From an uncultured Bacteroidota bacterium (GTDB lineage Bacteria; Bacteroidota; Bacteroidia; Chitinophagales; Chitinophagaceae): a DNA stretch of 44,505 nt. The first letter of the stretch is position 1; each line of letters begins with the position of its first letter. The notes under the pieces were generated by a model. That model ran no database searches and was not told the origin of the DNA. It saw only the letters and a list, made by a program, of their open reading frames with translations. The stretch covers positions 1-44,505 of the forward strand of contig CAIQHJ010000126.1 in assembly GCA_903871575.1 (NCBI GenBank), given 5' to 3'. A program made the position numbers and the translations under genes. Below are positions 6,679-43,058 of this stretch, piece after piece.

Positions 6679-7044
6679 TTACATTTCAAAATCATTGCTG
6701 GGTTGATTGTCAGATTTCTTATCCAACATCATGAGATGATCGCCAATAATTTCGGTTACCGATTTCTTATTGCCATCTTTATCATCCCAACTTCTCGTTT
6801 TTAATTTCCCTTCCAAATAGATTAAATTCCCTTTGTGCAAGTATTTTTGCGCCATTTCTGCCAAGCTCCTCCACAAAACAATTTGATGCCATTCGGTTTG
6901 AGTAATCAGTTTACCTGTTTTGTCTTTGTAAGTTTCTGAGGTAGCCAAAGTGAATTTCGCAACAGCCACATTGGCTTCTGTAAACAACATTTCAGGATCT
7001 TTCCCTAAATGTCCTATCAACGTCACTTTGTTTAGTCCCTTCAT
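6679..7044 (-). CDS. ssb: Single-stranded DNA-binding protein
   Basis: MKGLNKVTLIGHLGKDPEMLFTEANVAVAKFTLATSE... OB-fold SSB; acidic tail. Start MKGLNK preferred over the 7053 ORF start. Confidence 0.9.
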   Translation of the reverse strand: MKGLNKVTLIGHLGKDPEMLFTEANVAVAKFTLATSETYKDKTGKLITQTEWHQIVLWRSLAEMAQKYLHKGNLIYLEGKLKTRSWDDKDGNKKSVTEIIGDHLMMLDKKSDNQPSNDFEM

Positions 7045-28577: not shown

Positions 28578-30695
28578 ATGGAAAAAATTACATGGAAAGT
28601 AGATGGGATGACTTGTAGCAATTGTGCTTTATCCATTAATAAACTCCTCGAAAAAAAAGGATTGGTCAATATAAAAGTCAACCCCATTGACGGTATTGTA
28701 CACTTCGATTGGGACCACAAGCCTTCACTTGAATCTATTAAAAACGATATAGCCGGTTTAGGTTATGCGGTTAAAGATGATGAACAACAAGTTAGTTCAA
28801 CAAAAACCAAATGGCTCTCTACAAATAAACAACGTTTTTTATTTACACTTCCTTTTACTGCCATACTCATGTTGCACATGCTGCACCAATGGATTCCATT
28901 GCATTTCATCGCCAATCCTTGGTTGCAACTTATTTTGTGTACGCCTGTATTTATCGTTGGCATGTTGTTTTTTGGGAAAAGTGCTTGGCGAAGTATTTGG
29001 AGCGGAGTGCCCAACATGAATGTGTTGGTTACTTTAGGATCCTCCCTTGCTTTTGTTTATAGCCTTGCCGGTCTCCTCTATTTTAAAAACGCAGATTATA
29101 TTTTTTTTGAAACTACCGCATCAATAATCACCTTAGTGTTATTGGGCAATTACCTCGAAGAAAACACCAAAAAAGCAACACAAAAGGCACTCGATAGTTT
29201 GGTCAAATCACAAAAACTGATGGCCAACATGATTGCTTTTGACGACAAACACCAGGAACAGATTTTTCAAATTGAAAATACACAGCTGAAAACCGGAGAT
29301 TTAATCCTCATCAAAACTGGTGAACAAGTGCCCATTGATTGCAAAATTTTATGGGGCGATTGTGCGGTTAATGAAGCCATTATTACAGGAGAAAGCATCC
29401 CCATTCTTAAAACCAAAAAAGACGCTTTAATTGGCGGAAGCACCATCGACGACGGCATCATAAAAGCACAGGTTACTGCCGTTGGAAAAGATACCGTATT
29501 GGCCAGCATCATTTTGATGGTTCAACAAGCACAAGCCGAAAAGCCGCCTATGCAAAAACTGGCAGATAGAATCAGTGCCATTTTTGTTCCCGTTGTCATT
29601 GTGATTGCTATCATTGCTTTTTTGGCCAACTACTTTTTCTTTGCTATTCCTTTCGATTTGTCATTGATGCGGGCCATTGCCGTTTTGGTCATCTCTTGTC
29701 CCTGCGCAATGGGCCTTGCCACGCCAGCTGCTATTGCTGTTGGTTTGGGTAGGGCTGCAAAAAAAGGCATCATCTTTCGAAACGCAACCAGTTTAGAATC
29801 ATTCAAAACCATTCAACAAATTGTATTCGATAAAACAGGCACTCTAACAACCGGACAATTTACCGTAAGCGATTACCATACTTCCATTGAAGACAGTGAA
29901 TTTAAATCGATTGTATTGTCTATGGAAAAATATTCAAATCATCCCATCGCCAATGGCATTGTAAAAGATTGGAAACAAGCGAGCGTGGTGCTTTGGAAAA
30001 ACGCAACAGAAATAAAAGGAATTGGTGTTCGAACAGAAGATAATATGGGCAATGTTTTCGAAGCTGGCTCATCCAAAATTTTAAAAAGCCAAAACGCAAC
30101 AGATAGCCACAATGTATATGTGCTAAAAAATGGCGAATTGATCGGTTGGGTGGACGTACAAGATGAAATCAGGCCAGAAGCAAGGCAAGTAATGGATTGG
30201 TTTAATCAACACAACATTAAAACCATCATGCTCACGGGCGATTTGCAGCAAAAAGCGGATGTCGTGGCAAAAGCACTTGGGATACAAGAGGTTTTTGCAT
30301 CTTATTCTCCTGCACAAAAACTCAAAAAAATTACTGAATTGAATAATCAAAAACCAACCGCCATGGTTGGTGATGGCATCAATGACGCGCCAGCATTGGC
30401 AAAAGCTACCATCGGTATATCCATTAGCGATGCTGCGCAATTGGCGCTGCAACATGCCGATGTTGTGTTGATGAATAAAGGACTGCAAAATTTACCTGAA
30501 GCACTTGGGTTGGGAAAACACACATACATCACCATCAAACAAAATTTATATTGGGCTTTCTCCTACAATATTGTTGCCATTCCAATTGCTGCCATGGGAT
30601 TATTAACGCCAACTTTTGCCGCTTTAATCATGGGTGGCAGTGATGTTATGCTCGCTGTAATTTCTTTACGGCTATTTATAAAAAAGGTTGTTTAA
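28578..30695 (+). CDS. copA: Copper-translocating P-type ATPase
   Basis: 705 aa; N-terminal HMA GMTCSNC, CPC motif (SCPCAMGLATP), DKTGTLT, GDGINDAPAL. Confidence 0.9.
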   Translation: MEKITWKVDGMTCSNCALSINKLLEKKGLVNIKVNPIDGIVHFDWDHKPSLESIKNDIAGLGYAVKDDEQQVSSTKTKWLSTNKQRFLFTLPFTAILMLHMLHQWIPLHFIANPWLQLILCTPVFIVGMLFFGKSAWRSIWSGVPNMNVLVTLGSSLAFVYSLAGLLYFKNADYIFFETTASIITLVLLGNYLEENTKKATQKALDSLVKSQKLMANMIAFDDKHQEQIFQIENTQLKTGDLILIKTGEQVPIDCKILWGDCAVNEAIITGESIPILKTKKDALIGGSTIDDGIIKAQVTAVGKDTVLASIILMVQQAQAEKPPMQKLADRISAIFVPVVIVIAIIAFLANYFFFAIPFDLSLMRAIAVLVISCPCAMGLATPAAIAVGLGRAAKKGIIFRNATSLESFKTIQQIVFDKTGTLTTGQFTVSDYHTSIEDSEFKSIVLSMEKYSNHPIANGIVKDWKQASVVLWKNATEIKGIGVRTEDNMGNVFEAGSSKILKSQNATDSHNVYVLKNGELIGWVDVQDEIRPEARQVMDWFNQHNIKTIMLTGDLQQKADVVAKALGIQEVFASYSPAQKLKKITELNNQKPTAMVGDGINDAPALAKATIGISISDAAQLALQHADVVLMNKGLQNLPEALGLGKHTYITIKQNLYWAFSYNIVAIPIAAMGLLTPTFAALIMGGSDVMLAVISLRLFIKKVV

Positions 30696-32625
30696 CTTCA
30701 TTTCTTATTACAATACCTTGAATTCTAGCACATCAATTTTAAAAAAATATTGGGGACATGAACAGTTTCGTCCAATGCAGGAAAGCATTGTAAATGCTGT
30801 ATTAGAAGGAAACGACGTACTGGCTTTGTTACCAACAGGTGGTGGAAAATCGGTGTGCTTTCAAGTTCCCGCAATGATGATGGAAGGCATTTGTATTGTA
30901 ATCAGTCCGCTCATTGCTTTGATGAAAGACCAAGTGGAAAATCTTCAAAAAAAAGGAATTCACGCTTTGTCTATTTATTCGGGCATGCACTACATGGAAG
31001 TGAAACGAACACTCCAAAATGCTGCTTATGGAAATTACAAGTTCCTCTATGTTTCACCCGAAAGATTGGAGACATCCCTTTTTGAAGAATACCTGCCAGC
31101 CATCAATCCATGTCTCATTGCTATTGATGAAGCACATTGCATCTCTCAATGGGGATACGATTTCAGGCCTTCTTATTTAAACATTGCAGCGCTTCGTAAA
31201 CATTTACCCGATATTCCCATTATTGCACTAACGGCATCTGCTACACTAACTGTGCAAAATGACATTTGCGAAAAATTGTTGTTCAACAAAAAGCAAATGC
31301 GTTTTCAACAATCTTTTGCCAGGCCCAATTTATCTTACCATGCATTGCAACCTGTTGCCAAACAAACCAAGTTGATTGATGTGTTGCAAAAAATAAAGGG
31401 AAGTTCTATTGTATATTGCAAAAGTAGAAAGCAAACCCAACAAATTGCAACCCTGCTCTCACAGCAAGGCATAGTAGCAGATTTTTATCATGCTGGACTT
31501 AGCAGCGCCCAAAGGGATTCCAAACAAGAAGATTGGATAAAAAACAAGATACAGACGATTGTATGTACCAATGCATTTGGTATGGGAATCGACAAGCCAG
31601 ATGTACGTCTCGTGGTGCATTATGCTATCCCCGAAAGTTTAGAACATTATTACCAAGAAGCAGGAAGAGCCGGTAGAGATGGGAATCGTGCACATGCCAT
31701 TTTATTGTTTGAAAAACAAGAGTTGAACGACTTGTATCAAATGCATGAGATGAGATTCCCCACATTAGATTTTTTAAAAAAATTGTACGCCGATTTAATG
31801 AACCATTTACAAGTGGCAGCAGGTATTGGCGAAGGACAAACTTTTGATTTTGAAATGAGCGTTTTTGCTGAGAATTTCAAACTCAACATCTTACAGGCCA
31901 CCTATGGTTTGCAAGCATTGGCACAAGAAGGATTGTTCTATATGGGCGAATCTATTTACAAACCTTCAAAAATTGTATTTACTACAACAAAAGATGCATT
32001 GATTGATTTTGAAAATATGCATCCTACGTTGGAGCCAATTATAAAGGCATTGTTAAGAAGCTATGAAGGCATTTTCGATTACCCCGTAAATATTTATGAA
32101 TCGCTGATTGCAAAATTGATACACTTGCCCATAGATCAAATCAAAAATGGATTGAGTATTTTACACAAATATCAAATCATTGATTATATCCCACAAAGCG
32201 ACAAGCCACAAATAACGCTGCTGCAAAATAGAATGTATCGCGACGACTTTCGATTTGATATCACTGCATTATCGAAACGAAAACAGCAGCACCTTGAAAG
32301 AATACAGGCCATGGCAGATTTTACCGTCAATCAAACCTTGTGTAGATCTGTAATCATCGGTCGATATTTCAATGATGAAAAAATACAAGCCTGCGGAATT
32401 TGCGACAATTGTATGCAGCTTCAAAAGAACAAAATAACAGCATTGCAAGTTGAGGAAATCAGCAATAAAATTTTATCCGTTTTGGAATGTGATCAACAGG
32501 ATTTAAAAGGATTGTCACAAGTCATTGCAACAGAGAACAAGGAAAACATTTTGCAGGTGATACAATACCTCGAAGCTGAGGAAATCATCAAGTTGAATGA
32601 AGATGGAAAATATCAGAAAGTTTAA
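30688..32625 (+). CDS. recQ: ATP-dependent DNA helicase RecQ
   Basis: 645 aa; FRPMQESIVNAVLEGNDVLALLPTGGGKSVCFQVPA, IDEAHCISQWGYDFRPSY, QEAGRAGRDG, zinc-binding Cys (CGICDNCMQL). Confidence 0.93.
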   Translation: MFNFISYYNTLNSSTSILKKYWGHEQFRPMQESIVNAVLEGNDVLALLPTGGGKSVCFQVPAMMMEGICIVISPLIALMKDQVENLQKKGIHALSIYSGMHYMEVKRTLQNAAYGNYKFLYVSPERLETSLFEEYLPAINPCLIAIDEAHCISQWGYDFRPSYLNIAALRKHLPDIPIIALTASATLTVQNDICEKLLFNKKQMRFQQSFARPNLSYHALQPVAKQTKLIDVLQKIKGSSIVYCKSRKQTQQIATLLSQQGIVADFYHAGLSSAQRDSKQEDWIKNKIQTIVCTNAFGMGIDKPDVRLVVHYAIPESLEHYYQEAGRAGRDGNRAHAILLFEKQELNDLYQMHEMRFPTLDFLKKLYADLMNHLQVAAGIGEGQTFDFEMSVFAENFKLNILQATYGLQALAQEGLFYMGESIYKPSKIVFTTTKDALIDFENMHPTLEPIIKALLRSYEGIFDYPVNIYESLIAKLIHLPIDQIKNGLSILHKYQIIDYIPQSDKPQITLLQNRMYRDDFRFDITALSKRKQQHLERIQAMADFTVNQTLCRSVIIGRYFNDEKIQACGICDNCMQLQKNKITALQVEEISNKILSVLECDQQDLKGLSQVIATENKENILQVIQYLEAEEIIKLNEDGKYQKV

Positions 32626-32626
32626 A

Positions 32627-32695
32627 TCAAAAAAAAGGGACCAAGATAAAAATCTAGTCCCGCTTTAAAATCCAATATCCTATGAAAAACCATGG
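32627..32695 (-). ncRNA. Structured repeat element copy 1; possible 3' end of a minus-strand small RNA
   Basis: Minus strand GGGACTAGATTTTTATCTTGGTCCCTTTTTTTT is an intrinsic-terminator shape; near-identical to 39478-39545. Confidence 0.55.
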
Positions 32696-32952
32696 CAAAG
32701 ATAACTGCACCTGGTTATGATACAAACAAATTTCTTTTCTTTGTTCAACTTATTTTTCCACAATTTGAATTAAGCTGATATATAGGATTGCTATTTTTTT
32801 TAACCCAATCAATATCAGGAATTTATAAAAATTTATTCCATTAGCTTTGATGAAAAGATTGATACAAAAAAACCTTTAACAAAAAATTATTCACAAATAA
32901 AAAGATATAAAAAATCAAAAGTATAATTTGGAGTGAACTAAAACATATTACC

Positions 32953-33651
32953 ATGGAAGCAACAAAATCAAAAATCTTACTTTGCGAGGATGATACCAAT
33001 CTTGGCATGGTTTTAAAAAACTACCTTGAATTGAATGACTATGATGTCACATTGGAAAGAGATGGCCGTTTGGGTTTGGCTGCATTTCAAAGGGAAAAAT
33101 ATGACATCTGCCTTTTGGATGTGATGATGCCCAATATGGATGGCTTTACGGTAGCTGAAGAAATCAGAGACATCAACCCAGATGTGCCTTTGTTTTTTCT
33201 GAGTGCAAAAACAATGAAAGAAGACATTATTCAAGGATATAAATTAGGTGCAGATGATTACATCACCAAGCCATTTGATAGTGAGGTGTTGTTGCTTAAA
33301 ATAAAAGCAATCATCAAGCGCAATGAAGAAGATCACAGAGAAGAAGCGAATGCGGAATATGATTTAGGCAATTACCATTTCAATCCGCGTTTACGTGAAT
33401 TAACGGTAGCTGGAAAAACACAAACCCTTTCTCCTAAAGAAAATGATTTATTGAGAATGCTTGCAGATTATAAAAACGATTTACTGCCTCGTGAAGCAGC
33501 ATTGAAAAAAATCTGGGGCAGCGATACCTATTTCAACGGAAGAAGTATGGATGTGTACATTGCTAAATTGAGAAAATATTTAAAAGAAGACGACAAACTA
33601 GAAATAGTAAACATCCATGGAAATGGATTTAGACTGGTTGTTGCAGAGTAA
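32953..33651 (+). CDS. OmpR-family response regulator (RprY-like)
   Basis: 232 aa; receiver CEDDTNLGMVLKNYLE, LLDVMMPNMDGF, KPFDSEVLLLKIKAII; winged-helix C-terminus. Confidence 0.9.
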   Translation: MEATKSKILLCEDDTNLGMVLKNYLELNDYDVTLERDGRLGLAAFQREKYDICLLDVMMPNMDGFTVAEEIRDINPDVPLFFLSAKTMKEDIIQGYKLGADDYITKPFDSEVLLLKIKAIIKRNEEDHREEANAEYDLGNYHFNPRLRELTVAGKTQTLSPKENDLLRMLADYKNDLLPREAALKKIWGSDTYFNGRSMDVYIAKLRKYLKEDDKLEIVNIHGNGFRLVVAE

Positions 33652-39477: not shown

Positions 39478-39545
39478 AAAAAAAGGGCCAAGATAAAAAT
39501 CTAGCCCCGCTTTAAAATCCAATATCCTATGAAAAACCGAGGTAA
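39478..39545 (-). ncRNA. Structured repeat element copy 2; possible 3' end of a minus-strand small RNA, or terminator downstream of icmF
   Basis: Minus strand GGGGCTAGATTTTTATCTTGGCCCTTTTTTT; near-identical to 32627-32695 with a compensatory stem change. Confidence 0.55.
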
Positions 39546-39674
39546 AAGTATAAGAGATTTCCTATCCTTCAAAGTCTTTTTGAACACAATTTACTTTCGT
39601 GTATAAATGCATCAAACTCGTGTGAATTCAATTCAATATTATGACCTCTTCTATTGTATAAACTCAACACATCA

Positions 39675-42600
39675 TTACATATTTCTGCGATATTGACCCC
39701 CTACTTTGTATAGTGCATTGGTGATTTGACCTAGGCTACAACATTTTACTGTTTCCATCAAGGCTTCAAATAAATTGCCATTGTTGATGGCAACTTGTTG
39801 CAGGTGTTGTAGCAATTTTTCGGATTTATCCTGATGTCTATTTTGGAATGCCAATAAGGTTGAAATCTGCAATTCTTTTTCTGCTTCGGTAGATCTAATC
39901 ACTTCAGAGGGCAAGATGGTAGGAGATCCTTTTTTACTTAAGAAAGTATTCACGCCCACGATTGGATATTCGCCAGTATGTTTCATGGTTTCGTAATGCA
40001 AACTTTCTTCTTGAATTTTATTGCGTTGATACATTCTTTCCATAGCGCCCAACACACCACCTCTTTCAGTAATGCGGTTAAATTCTGTCATCACTGCATC
40101 TTCTACTAAATCGGTAAGTTCTTCAATTAGAAATGCGCCTTGGTTTGGATTTTCGTTTTTGGCGGTGCCCAGTTCTCTGTTGATGATTAATTGAATGGCC
40201 ATTGCTCTTCTTACACTTTCTTCGGTTGGTGTAGTTATCGCCTCATCGTATGCGTTAGTATGTAAAGAATTGCAGTTGTCGTATATCGCGTACAATGCCT
40301 GTAAGGTTGTTCTGATGTCATTGAAGTCGATTTCCTGTGCATGTAAACTTCTGCCACTCGTTTGAATATGGTACTTCAATTTTTGACTTCTGCTGTTGGC
40401 CTTGTATTTATTCTTCATCGCCTTTGCCCAAATGCGTCTAGCTACGCGGCCAATTACACTGTATTCTGGATCCATGCCGTTGCTAAAAAAGAAGGAGAGG
40501 TTTGGAGCAAAATCATCAATGTTCATGCCTCTGCTCAAATAATATTCTACATATGTGAAACCATTGGCCAATGTAAATGCCAGCTGTGTGATAGGATTGG
40601 CGCCAGCTTCAGCAATATGGTATCCGCTGATGCTCACACTATAAAAATTTTCAACTTGGTGTTCGATGAAATATTGTTGAACATCTCCCATCAATTTCAA
40701 AGCAAATTCTGTAGAAAAGATACAAGTGTTTTGTGCTTGGTCTTCTTTTAAAATATCGGCTTGCACTGTTCCTCTAACGGTTGACAATGCGGTAGCTTTT
40801 ATTTTTTCGTACACTTCTTTAGGCAACACATCTTCTCCACTTAAGCCCAATAACCTCAATCCTAAACCATTGTTTCCAGGTGGCAGTTCTCCATCCATTT
40901 TTCCATGAGCTGGTAATACGGGATTATTGTTTATGCCTACATATTTGGGTAATGCATTGATATTGAATTTTGATTCTATGATCTCGTTTACAGTATCGCT
41001 TAGTTGATTTTCGATGATGTATTTTTCGCATTGTTGGTCGATGGCAGCATTCATGAAAAAAGCTAAAAGAATTGGAGCCGGACCATTAATAGTCATGCTT
41101 ACAGAAGTTTTGGGATCACACAAATCGAAACCGCTGTATAGTTTTTTTGCATCATCTACGGTTGCAATACTCACGCCGCTGTTGCCAATTTTCCCATAGA
41201 TATCTGGACGAATCGCAGGGTCTTCACCGTATAATGTAACACTGTCAAATGCAGTACTGAGGCGCTTTGCGGGCTGTCCAACACTCACATAATGGAAACG
41301 ACGGTTGGTTCTTTCGGGACCACCTTCACCTGCAAACATTCTGGTAGGATCTTCCCCATCTCTTTTCAATGGAAATACGCCTGCAGTATACGGATATTCA
41401 CCTGGAACATTTTCTTGCAATTGCCATTTTAAAATATCACCCCAATCTTGATACCTGGGCAAATACACTTTAGCAATCAATGAACCGGACAAACTTTTAT
41501 ACGTGAGTGGTTGTTTGATGATTTTATCTCTAACCTGAAATTCATAAAAGGGTTGTTGATAGCGATGTTGTATAGCTGGCCAGTTTTCAATTCTTTTTTT
41601 ATTTTCTGGTGTAAGCAAAGTTTGAATGTTGCTGATGGCAGATTGAATAGAATTATTTGCGGCAGAATCTTTTATCAATTGAGTTGCACCGTGTAATTGG
41701 TACCATTGGGTTGCCAACTTACTTTGTGCCACAACATGCGCATCGTAAGCCTGAATGGTTTCTGCGATTTCAGAAAGATATCTTACTCTTGCGGGTGGGA
41801 TGATGGTGGAAGCGGAAAAAGACGCTGTGATAATCTGCTCGTTTTTAACTGAAAAATCAACGCTCGTTTTTTTTGTAATTGTTTGCATGAGTAATGCAAA
41901 AAGTTGGTTGATTCCAGCGTCGTTAAATTGAGCAGCAATTGAACCAACGATTGGCAACTGTTCATCTTTCGCATCCCAAAGACCATGATTGCGTTTGTAT
42001 TGTTTGCGTACATCATGCAATGCATCCAATGCGCCGGCTTTGTCAAATTTGTTTACACAAACCAAGTCAGCATAGTCGAGCATATTTATTTTTTCGAGCT
42101 GAGAAGGTGCGCCATATTCAGGCGTCATTACATACATGCTTACGTTGCAATAATCCAAGATAGAAGCATCGCTTTGACCAACGCCAGCGGATTCGAGAAT
42201 GATAAAATCATATCCTGCAACTTTGCAAATGTCAATTGCATCTTGAACATATTTGCTGAGTGCCTTATCGCTTTCGCGGGTTGCCAAACTGCGCATGTAT
42301 GCACGTGGAGAAGAAATGGCATTCATTCTGATTCTGTCGCCCAACAATGCACCGCCGGTTTTTTTCTTTGATGGATCAACAGAAATAACTGCAATCGTTT
42401 TGTCTGTATACTGTTGTAAAAAACGTCTAACGATTTCATCAGTAACGGAAGACTTTCCGGCACCACCCGTTCCCGTTATGCCTAAAACTGGTGTTTGAAT
42501 AGTAGAAAGAAAATCAGGATCTACGCCATCGAATTGGTCGTTTTCTGCTAGGGTTATTTTTCTTGCAACCAACCGAATATCCTTCACTTCACCTAAGGTC

Positions 42601-43058
42601 ATTGGTTTGGAAAAATCGCCTTTATCATTCAAATTAAAATCGCATTGTTTGATTACATCTTCAATCATACCTTCCAAACCCATTGCTCTGCCATCATCAG
42701 GAGAATAAACTCTTGTGATGCCATATTGATGCAATTCATCAATTTCAGCTGGCAGGATGGTACCGCCACCGCCGCCAAATATTTTAATATGTCCACAACC
42801 ATTCTCTTCTAATAAATCTTTCATGTATTTAAAGAACTCAACGTGACCGCCTTGATAACTTGTGATGGCGATACCTTGTACATCTTCTTCAATGGCACAT
42901 TCAACAATTTCAGCTACGCTTCTGTTGTGGCCCAGGTGAATAATTTCGGCACCTTTACTTTGAAGGATTCTGCGCATAATATTGATGGCTGCATCGTGAC
43001 CATCAAACAAGGATGCGGCAGTAACAATTCTAACTTTTTGTTGTGTTGAGAAGCTCAT
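39675..43058 (-). CDS. icmF: Fused acyl-CoA mutase (IcmF type: B12-binding + MeaB-like GTPase + mutase domain)
   Basis: 1127 aa; N-terminal B12-binding domain ([28 protein letters not shown]), GTPase [13 protein letters not shown], mutase domain [56 protein letters not shown]. Confidence 0.88.

Follow-up and report, generated by a model that had tools for sequence, protein, structure and literature searches.

The window, a stretch of 44,505 nucleotides from an uncultured bacterium of the Chitinophagaceae, carries two near-identical copies of a short element on its minus strand (Table 1). They share 93% identity over 70 bp (E=1.5e-22 in a search of the bacterium's own genome), and in both a brief A/T spacer separates GGTTTTTCATAGGATATTGGATT from a hairpin followed by a T-run. 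Copy 1 is flanked on the plus strand by recQ and the gene of an OmpR-type response regulator, as the earlier note had described. The predicted transcript of copy 1 is about 60-63 nt long and extends from the GG at 32691 to the U-run. A minus-strand terminator had been proposed at each copy, and it is indeed present: GGTTTTTCATAGGATATTGGATTTTAAAGCGGGACTAGATTTTTATCTTGGTCCC is followed by T8 in copy 1, and ...GCGGGGCTAGATTTTTATCTTGGCCC by T7 in copy 2. The stem is G+C-rich and the U-run that follows it is strand-specific, as the hairpin of copy 1 has no U-run after it on the plus strand.

Table 1. Positions of the two candidate small RNA genes, their parts, and neighboring genes in the window (CM, covariance model)
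Feature	Positions	Strand	Basis or remark
recQ (DEAD helicase, Helicase_C, RecQ zinc-binding)	30688..32625	+	Pfam; convergent with copy 1
Candidate sRNA gene, copy 1	32629..32691	-	CM match 32632-32691, 85.1 bits; kept in genus
U-run (T8), intrinsic terminator of copy 1	32629..32636	-	sequence
Terminator hairpin, copy 1	32637..32661	-	8 of 9 pairs covary family-wide
Conserved 5' stretch resembling a seed, copy 1: GGUUUUUCAUAGGAUAUUGGAUU	32669..32691	-	alignment A2
Putative promoter of copy 1: TTTG (32726-32723), N19, TATCTTTG (32703-32696)	32696..32726	-	sequence and register
OmpR-type response regulator	32953..33651	+	Pfam; divergent from copy 1
Candidate sRNA gene, copy 2	39478..39538	-	CM match 39479-39538, 85.1 bits
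Terminator hairpin, copy 2, G-C replacing A-U	39485..39507	-	sequence; covariation
5' seed-like stretch of copy 2	39516..39538	-	identical to copy 1
Putative promoter of copy 2: TTTG (39573-39570), N19, TACTTTTA (39550-39543)	39543..39573	-	sequence and register
Fused methylmalonyl-CoA-type mutase/MeaB, upstream of copy 2	39675..43058	-	Pfam; same strand as copy 2

Hairpin, 5' stretch, and promoters

The replacement of an A-U by a G-C pair between the two copies, noted earlier as compensatory, is real and belongs to a wider pattern, with compensatory changes in eight of the nine stem pairs over 43 distinct members. Covariation was judged against two controls: 45 two-sided cells were observed compared to 10.5 +/- 2.8 after shuffling, and the covariation score was 0.456 compared to 0.224 +/- 0.016. 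The 5' stretch is nearly invariant. Folds predict it to be mostly unpaired except for a weak 4-bp hairpin that exposes UAGGAUAU in its loop; this hairpin never varies and therefore receives no covariation support.

Weak promoter-like boxes had been reported upstream of both copies. Boxes do exist there, but they are stronger than claimed and are positioned elsewhere, since both copies are preceded by the Bacteroidota promoter pattern TTTG-N19-TAnnTTTR with the exact N19 spacing. Of the 158 copies collected, 95 have a TAnnTT whose first base lies exactly 14 nt ahead of the core's first T, and at most 10 share any other single offset; 64 of these 95 also have TTG 21-25 nt further upstream. On account of this fixed register, transcription is predicted to start at the GG. 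In 15 copies, including all three on contig C209, CGTT replaces TAnnTT at -14, and CACAAT/CATACT-like hexamers lie 16-17 nt upstream of it in 14 of the 15. From this spacing and sequence we infer an alternative, ECF-like promoter. The copies between malate dehydrogenase and queA (L017:742-1515, L003, L143, L145, L162, and L163) have the ECF-like form, CAyAmT-N16/17-CGTT, and no sigma-ABfr-type promoter.

The original observation is thus correct, far beyond chance. The comparative evidence, namely promoter register, hairpin covariation, and the locus beside recQ, also favors the reading proposed with it, that of a minus-strand small RNA family, here with its own promoter.

Distribution of the family, its neighbors, and phage copies

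The earlier note knew two loci. Both are real, but BLAST finds at least seven copies in the genome (seven clear ones in 2.3 Mb: two in the window, three in tandem on C209, and two in tandem on C7), and a possible eighth at C141 is cut by the contig end. Of 59 genomes of the genus, 58 (counting the window's own) have matches, with 2-10 copies per genome in the other matching members among the matches listed. Across the Chitinophagaceae, bacteria of soil and water, copy number reaches about ten per genome. A scan of public genomes located the 20-nt core in at least 119 contigs, most of them titled Chitinophagaceae or genera of this family, while some metagenome-bin matches have broader or clearly doubtful taxon labels. 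Invariance of the core in that scan is partly set by the exact-match search, but the genus BLAST, which had no such constraint, also retained the core while the hairpin varied. Cultured carriers include Niastella, Flavihumibacter, Ferruginibacter, Terrimonas, Puia, and Chitinophagaceae bacterium DXS. A covariance model, R1, built from the 43 distinct copies, matches 12 of 14 sampled Chitinophagaceae genomes at E<1e-6 and gave no match at E<1e-4 outside the Chitinophagaceae (396 genomes searched). The family is absent from Rfam, and the open-licence literature searched holds no description of it. These data support a multicopy paralogous family that appears characteristic of the Chitinophagaceae.

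Several loci are common to relatives. Copy 1 occupies an old site behind recQ: a recQ homologue (weakest identity 31%) adjoins the element in 40 loci. Between these loci the distance to the response regulator gene varies; where the regulator is more distant, no minus-strand neighbor accounts for the terminator. Relatives also share the copy next to the mutase and those between malate dehydrogenase and queA: L165 retains the order flippase-sRNA-mutase and L102 the order sRNA-mutase; malate dehydrogenase neighbors the element in seven loci and queA in five. Because the same neighbors recur across genera, the family has been inherited in place rather than scattered as a mobile repeat.

Other loci show local peculiarities. 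In the second C7 copy (L018:1103-1176), 14 nt separate the end of the terminator from the start codon of a gene of the pfkB family, whose transcription would have to read through that terminator or begin within it. Tandem copies in L110:4050-4308 and L128:3038-3346 have a perfect inverted repeat upstream (GAAACTG-TATTT-CAGTTTC; AAAGYCC-GTTTC-GGGCTTT), and both arms differ between the two contigs. On the minus strand of L129 (Terrimonas ferruginea), around position 7020 of the locus, an ATG antisense to the seed opens a frame that resembles ribose-5-phosphate isomerase, although the true start of this gene is probably downstream.

Complete copies with a terminator are also found on two viral contigs, L380:5816-5890 (236 kb, encoding baseplate-wedge and ribonucleotide-reductase genes) and L379:4930-5001 (59 kb). 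Four further viral contigs (L381, L382, L384, and L385) have the seed, a promoter-like box, and a hairpin of their own; the genes compared between L382 and L384 are almost identical, and both contigs overlap with L381. The order in L382:4247-7912 is a Ro60/TROVE-vWA gene just upstream of the seed, the seed with a different hairpin, and HNH and integrase genes, the integrase 1 kb downstream. The position of Ro60 beside a small RNA is suggestive. These phage seeds may be regulatory copies or remnants of attachment sites. On L383 there is just the core, the displayed sequence contains no terminator, and the match may be due to chance.

A second RNA, AGUUUUCAUAGGGUACGGAUUAAAAACGGGCC..., occurs as about one element per genome in most of the family genomes sampled with R1. 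It consists of AGTTTTCATAGGGTACGGATTAAAAACGGGCC, a hairpin, and a T-run (L289:145-201 in G000:C154, L290-L298, and L267), usually adjoins a polysaccharide-deacetylase gene, and has a covarying-looking hairpin with the loop type of the main family. This GGGUACGGAUU RNA seems to be a sister sRNA.

Proposed action and competing explanations

We consider it probable that the element is a stand-alone sRNA gene of ~60 nt, one of a multicopy Chitinophagaceae family, which acts by pairing in trans in the manner of FopS. FopS is a multicopy sRNA of gut Bacteroides that controls nutrient-uptake genes (SusC-type transporter mRNAs); by pairing at the start regions of susC it prevents translation, an effect that RbpB counteracts (PMC11697453). 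Comparative sequence evidence supports a sigma-ABfr-type promoter that ends ~6 nt before the conserved block, so that the RNA should start at or beside GGUUUUUC, continuing with the nearly invariant 5' stretch of ~22 nt and then the covarying intrinsic terminator. In the proposed mechanism, the 5' stretch would pair with mRNAs, most plausibly at start codons, as UUUUUCAU is complementary to AUGAAAAA, and would block translation as FopS does for SusC-type transporter mRNAs in Bacteroides. With copies under housekeeping-type or ECF-like sigma factors, several signals could feed one seed. Translational repression of the FopS type through the 5' seed is the mechanism we favor as likely.

Targets and protein partners were sought by several routes. 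With UUUUUCAU kept in the controls, strong duplexes showed no excess at the 595 translation starts of one genus member (G039). The mean duplex energy there was -9.04, compared to -8.15 +/- 0.39 for fully shuffled seeds and -8.73 +/- 0.26 with UUUUUCAU kept, and was not significant. The ATATCCTATGAAA pattern outside the sRNA context had 26 matches compared to 14 for backward controls in 148 genomes, which is a weak test; about six of the matches lie at credible starts of genes, chiefly those of secreted proteins or lipoproteins, and the result is no more than suggestive. About 30 inspected susC start regions had no obvious common complement. In the own genome, 20-nt complements with up to three mismatches comprised the sRNA copies and one site, C57, without obvious sRNA features. 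The gene of a META-domain-like lipoprotein (L064) has a perfect 23-nt complement at its start codon and looked like a target. It was dropped, as its genome has no convincing sRNA copy and a scan of this size should yield about one chance match. As for partners, RRM_1 (RbpB-like) proteins occur, one or more, in 108 of 118 Chitinophagaceae genomes but were not detected in the window's 95%-complete genome; Hfq was detected neither there nor in 60 relatives. Given the non-significant start-region tests and these partner searches, we infer the trans mechanism from architecture and analogy. The seed is also more invariant across the whole family than loosely conserved mRNA targets would clearly require, which counts against this mechanism.

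Such invariance would suit a decoy RNA, whose conserved 5' stretch binds an RRM-type protein, or a different protein with affinity for single strands, and titrates it through multicopy expression. The display of UAGGAUAU in the loop of the weak conserved hairpin, the wide occurrence of RRM_1 proteins in the family, the binding of FopS by RbpB, an RRM-1 protein (PMC11697453), and the lack of a target excess at translation starts are all consistent with this, but the window's genome combines seven copies with no detectable RRM_1 protein and the 5' hairpin gains nothing from covariation. We regard a decoy as unlikely, and a mere terminator as improbable. The latter would end an upstream same-strand gene or act bidirectionally, without a separate RNA function, and would be well placed at copy 2, which shares its strand with the mutase gene and sits 137 nt past the stop of that gene, and at the two C7 copies, which follow mlaD. 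However, a terminator needs neither the invariant 22-nt upstream stretch nor a promoter in fixed register; copy 1 has no preceding same-strand gene, and its plus-strand hairpin lacks the U-run of a bidirectional terminator.

Multicopy and in places tandem occurrence might also indicate a dispersed mobile or REP-like repeat, and the core on phage contigs, in four cases near an integrase gene or gene end, an attachment site. Locations inherited across genera with the same neighbors, conserved covariation and promoter, and the lack of any match among 72,556 plasmids argue against these readings. The variant of the integrase phages, TTTTTCATAGGATATTGGACC, likewise occurs in 0 of 396 family genomes, and no prophage joined at the core was found in 396 genomes. 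Both ideas are highly improbable, and we give just as little credence to a cis-acting leader or attenuator, or to a small-peptide mRNA. The C7 copy close to the pfkB-family start codon would fit a leader, but most inspected copies precede no same-strand gene. A TTG-initiated frame of copy 1 is open through the hairpin but broken in other copies (GGATTAATACGG reads TTG GAT TAA), and the peptide reading was rejected because the frame is not conserved.

Most knowledge of post-transcriptional control in Bacteroidota comes from Bacteroides. A candidate sRNA family that is nearly invariant across a large environmental family would offer a second, independent study system, and the failure to find Hfq in carrier genomes adds to its interest. 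Its two classes of promoter, together with the copies on phages, raise the questions of which signals are integrated, what the seed contacts, and why phages carry it.

Comparison with FopS and other known RNAs

The earlier note had allowed that Rfam might assign the element another known role. At gathering thresholds the whole window yielded only a tRNA; nothing reached the gathering score at the element, and no role contradicting a small RNA emerged. FopS had been picked as the analogue before any sub-threshold Rfam search. In that search, the best full-length match of copy 1 was FopS (RF04319, BTncRNA_FopS), at 18.1 bits end to end and E=1.4 over all families, and the best of 20 copies reached 20.1 bits with the FopS model. 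Because this is below the gathering score of 56, the family is not filed as a FopS member. In the other direction, R1 scored 18.0-18.8 bits end to end in five of six Bacteroides FopS loci and 13.4 in the sixth, in each case as the best match of the locus; the E-values of R1 are rough and the six loci are paralogues, not independent. The shared positions are, in order, GUUUUUCAUAG..UAUU.GAUUU.

Both families have multicopy paralogues (seven copies here), a sigma-ABfr promoter directly upstream (here predicted by sequence), and a single-stranded 5' seed beginning UUUUUCAU with a Rho-independent terminator directly after it (here a seed-like stretch, predicted from folds and covariation, in which a weak 4-bp hairpin may form). 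Their lengths are similar, with 60 positions in this family and 71 in FopS, and both sequences occur on phage contigs. The present family differs in two extra bases (GA), in the 3' part of the seed (UUGGAUUUUAAA compared to UUAGAUUUAAGGUUAA), in its own hairpin with a near-constant UUUCUA-type loop, and in its second promoter class. It belongs to the Chitinophagaceae, whereas FopS belongs to the Bacteroidaceae, and an RbpB-type protein is undetected in the window's genome.

Both seeds hold the complement of AUGAAAAA, and convergence on such start regions is a possible source of the likeness. Several hits of the FopS model in other orders look antisense to gene starts, and many such hits were accordingly rejected as sRNAs. 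Two Chitinophagaceae variants, L282 and L191, carry GGUUUUUCAUAGGAUA and have intermediate R1 scores (27.4 and 25.7 bits). A more ambitious and rather doubtful proposal is a Bacteroidota-wide superfamily of UUUUUCAU-seeded sRNAs, in which FopS would be the Bacteroidaceae branch and the present family the Chitinophagaceae branch. One invariant seed would be shared by paralogues on different sigma factors, and phages, including the 236-kb contig, would carry copies that act on the host regulon.

Other known RNAs are less close. GibS, a Bacteroides sRNA that has the R1 seed in common with FopS, is linked via FopS to a related seed family and to RbpB binding (PMC11697453), but it is described as single-copy and with an additional seed, R2. 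Qrr, LhrC, and OmrA/B (PMC11697453) likewise comprise sibling sRNAs with a common seed and sometimes different regulators, yet they are unrelated in sequence and phylum, and some of them need Hfq. SorY (RF02651) matches two C7 copies at 25-26 bits, far from its gathering score of 111; the match is essentially confined to the terminator stem and is therefore a chance resemblance. SorY, the L20 leader, and other sub-threshold Rfam matches were rejected as resemblances of terminator or composition. Among known systems, it is FopS whose build this family repeats while being absent from Rfam, and by that analogy a function of the FopS type is likely.
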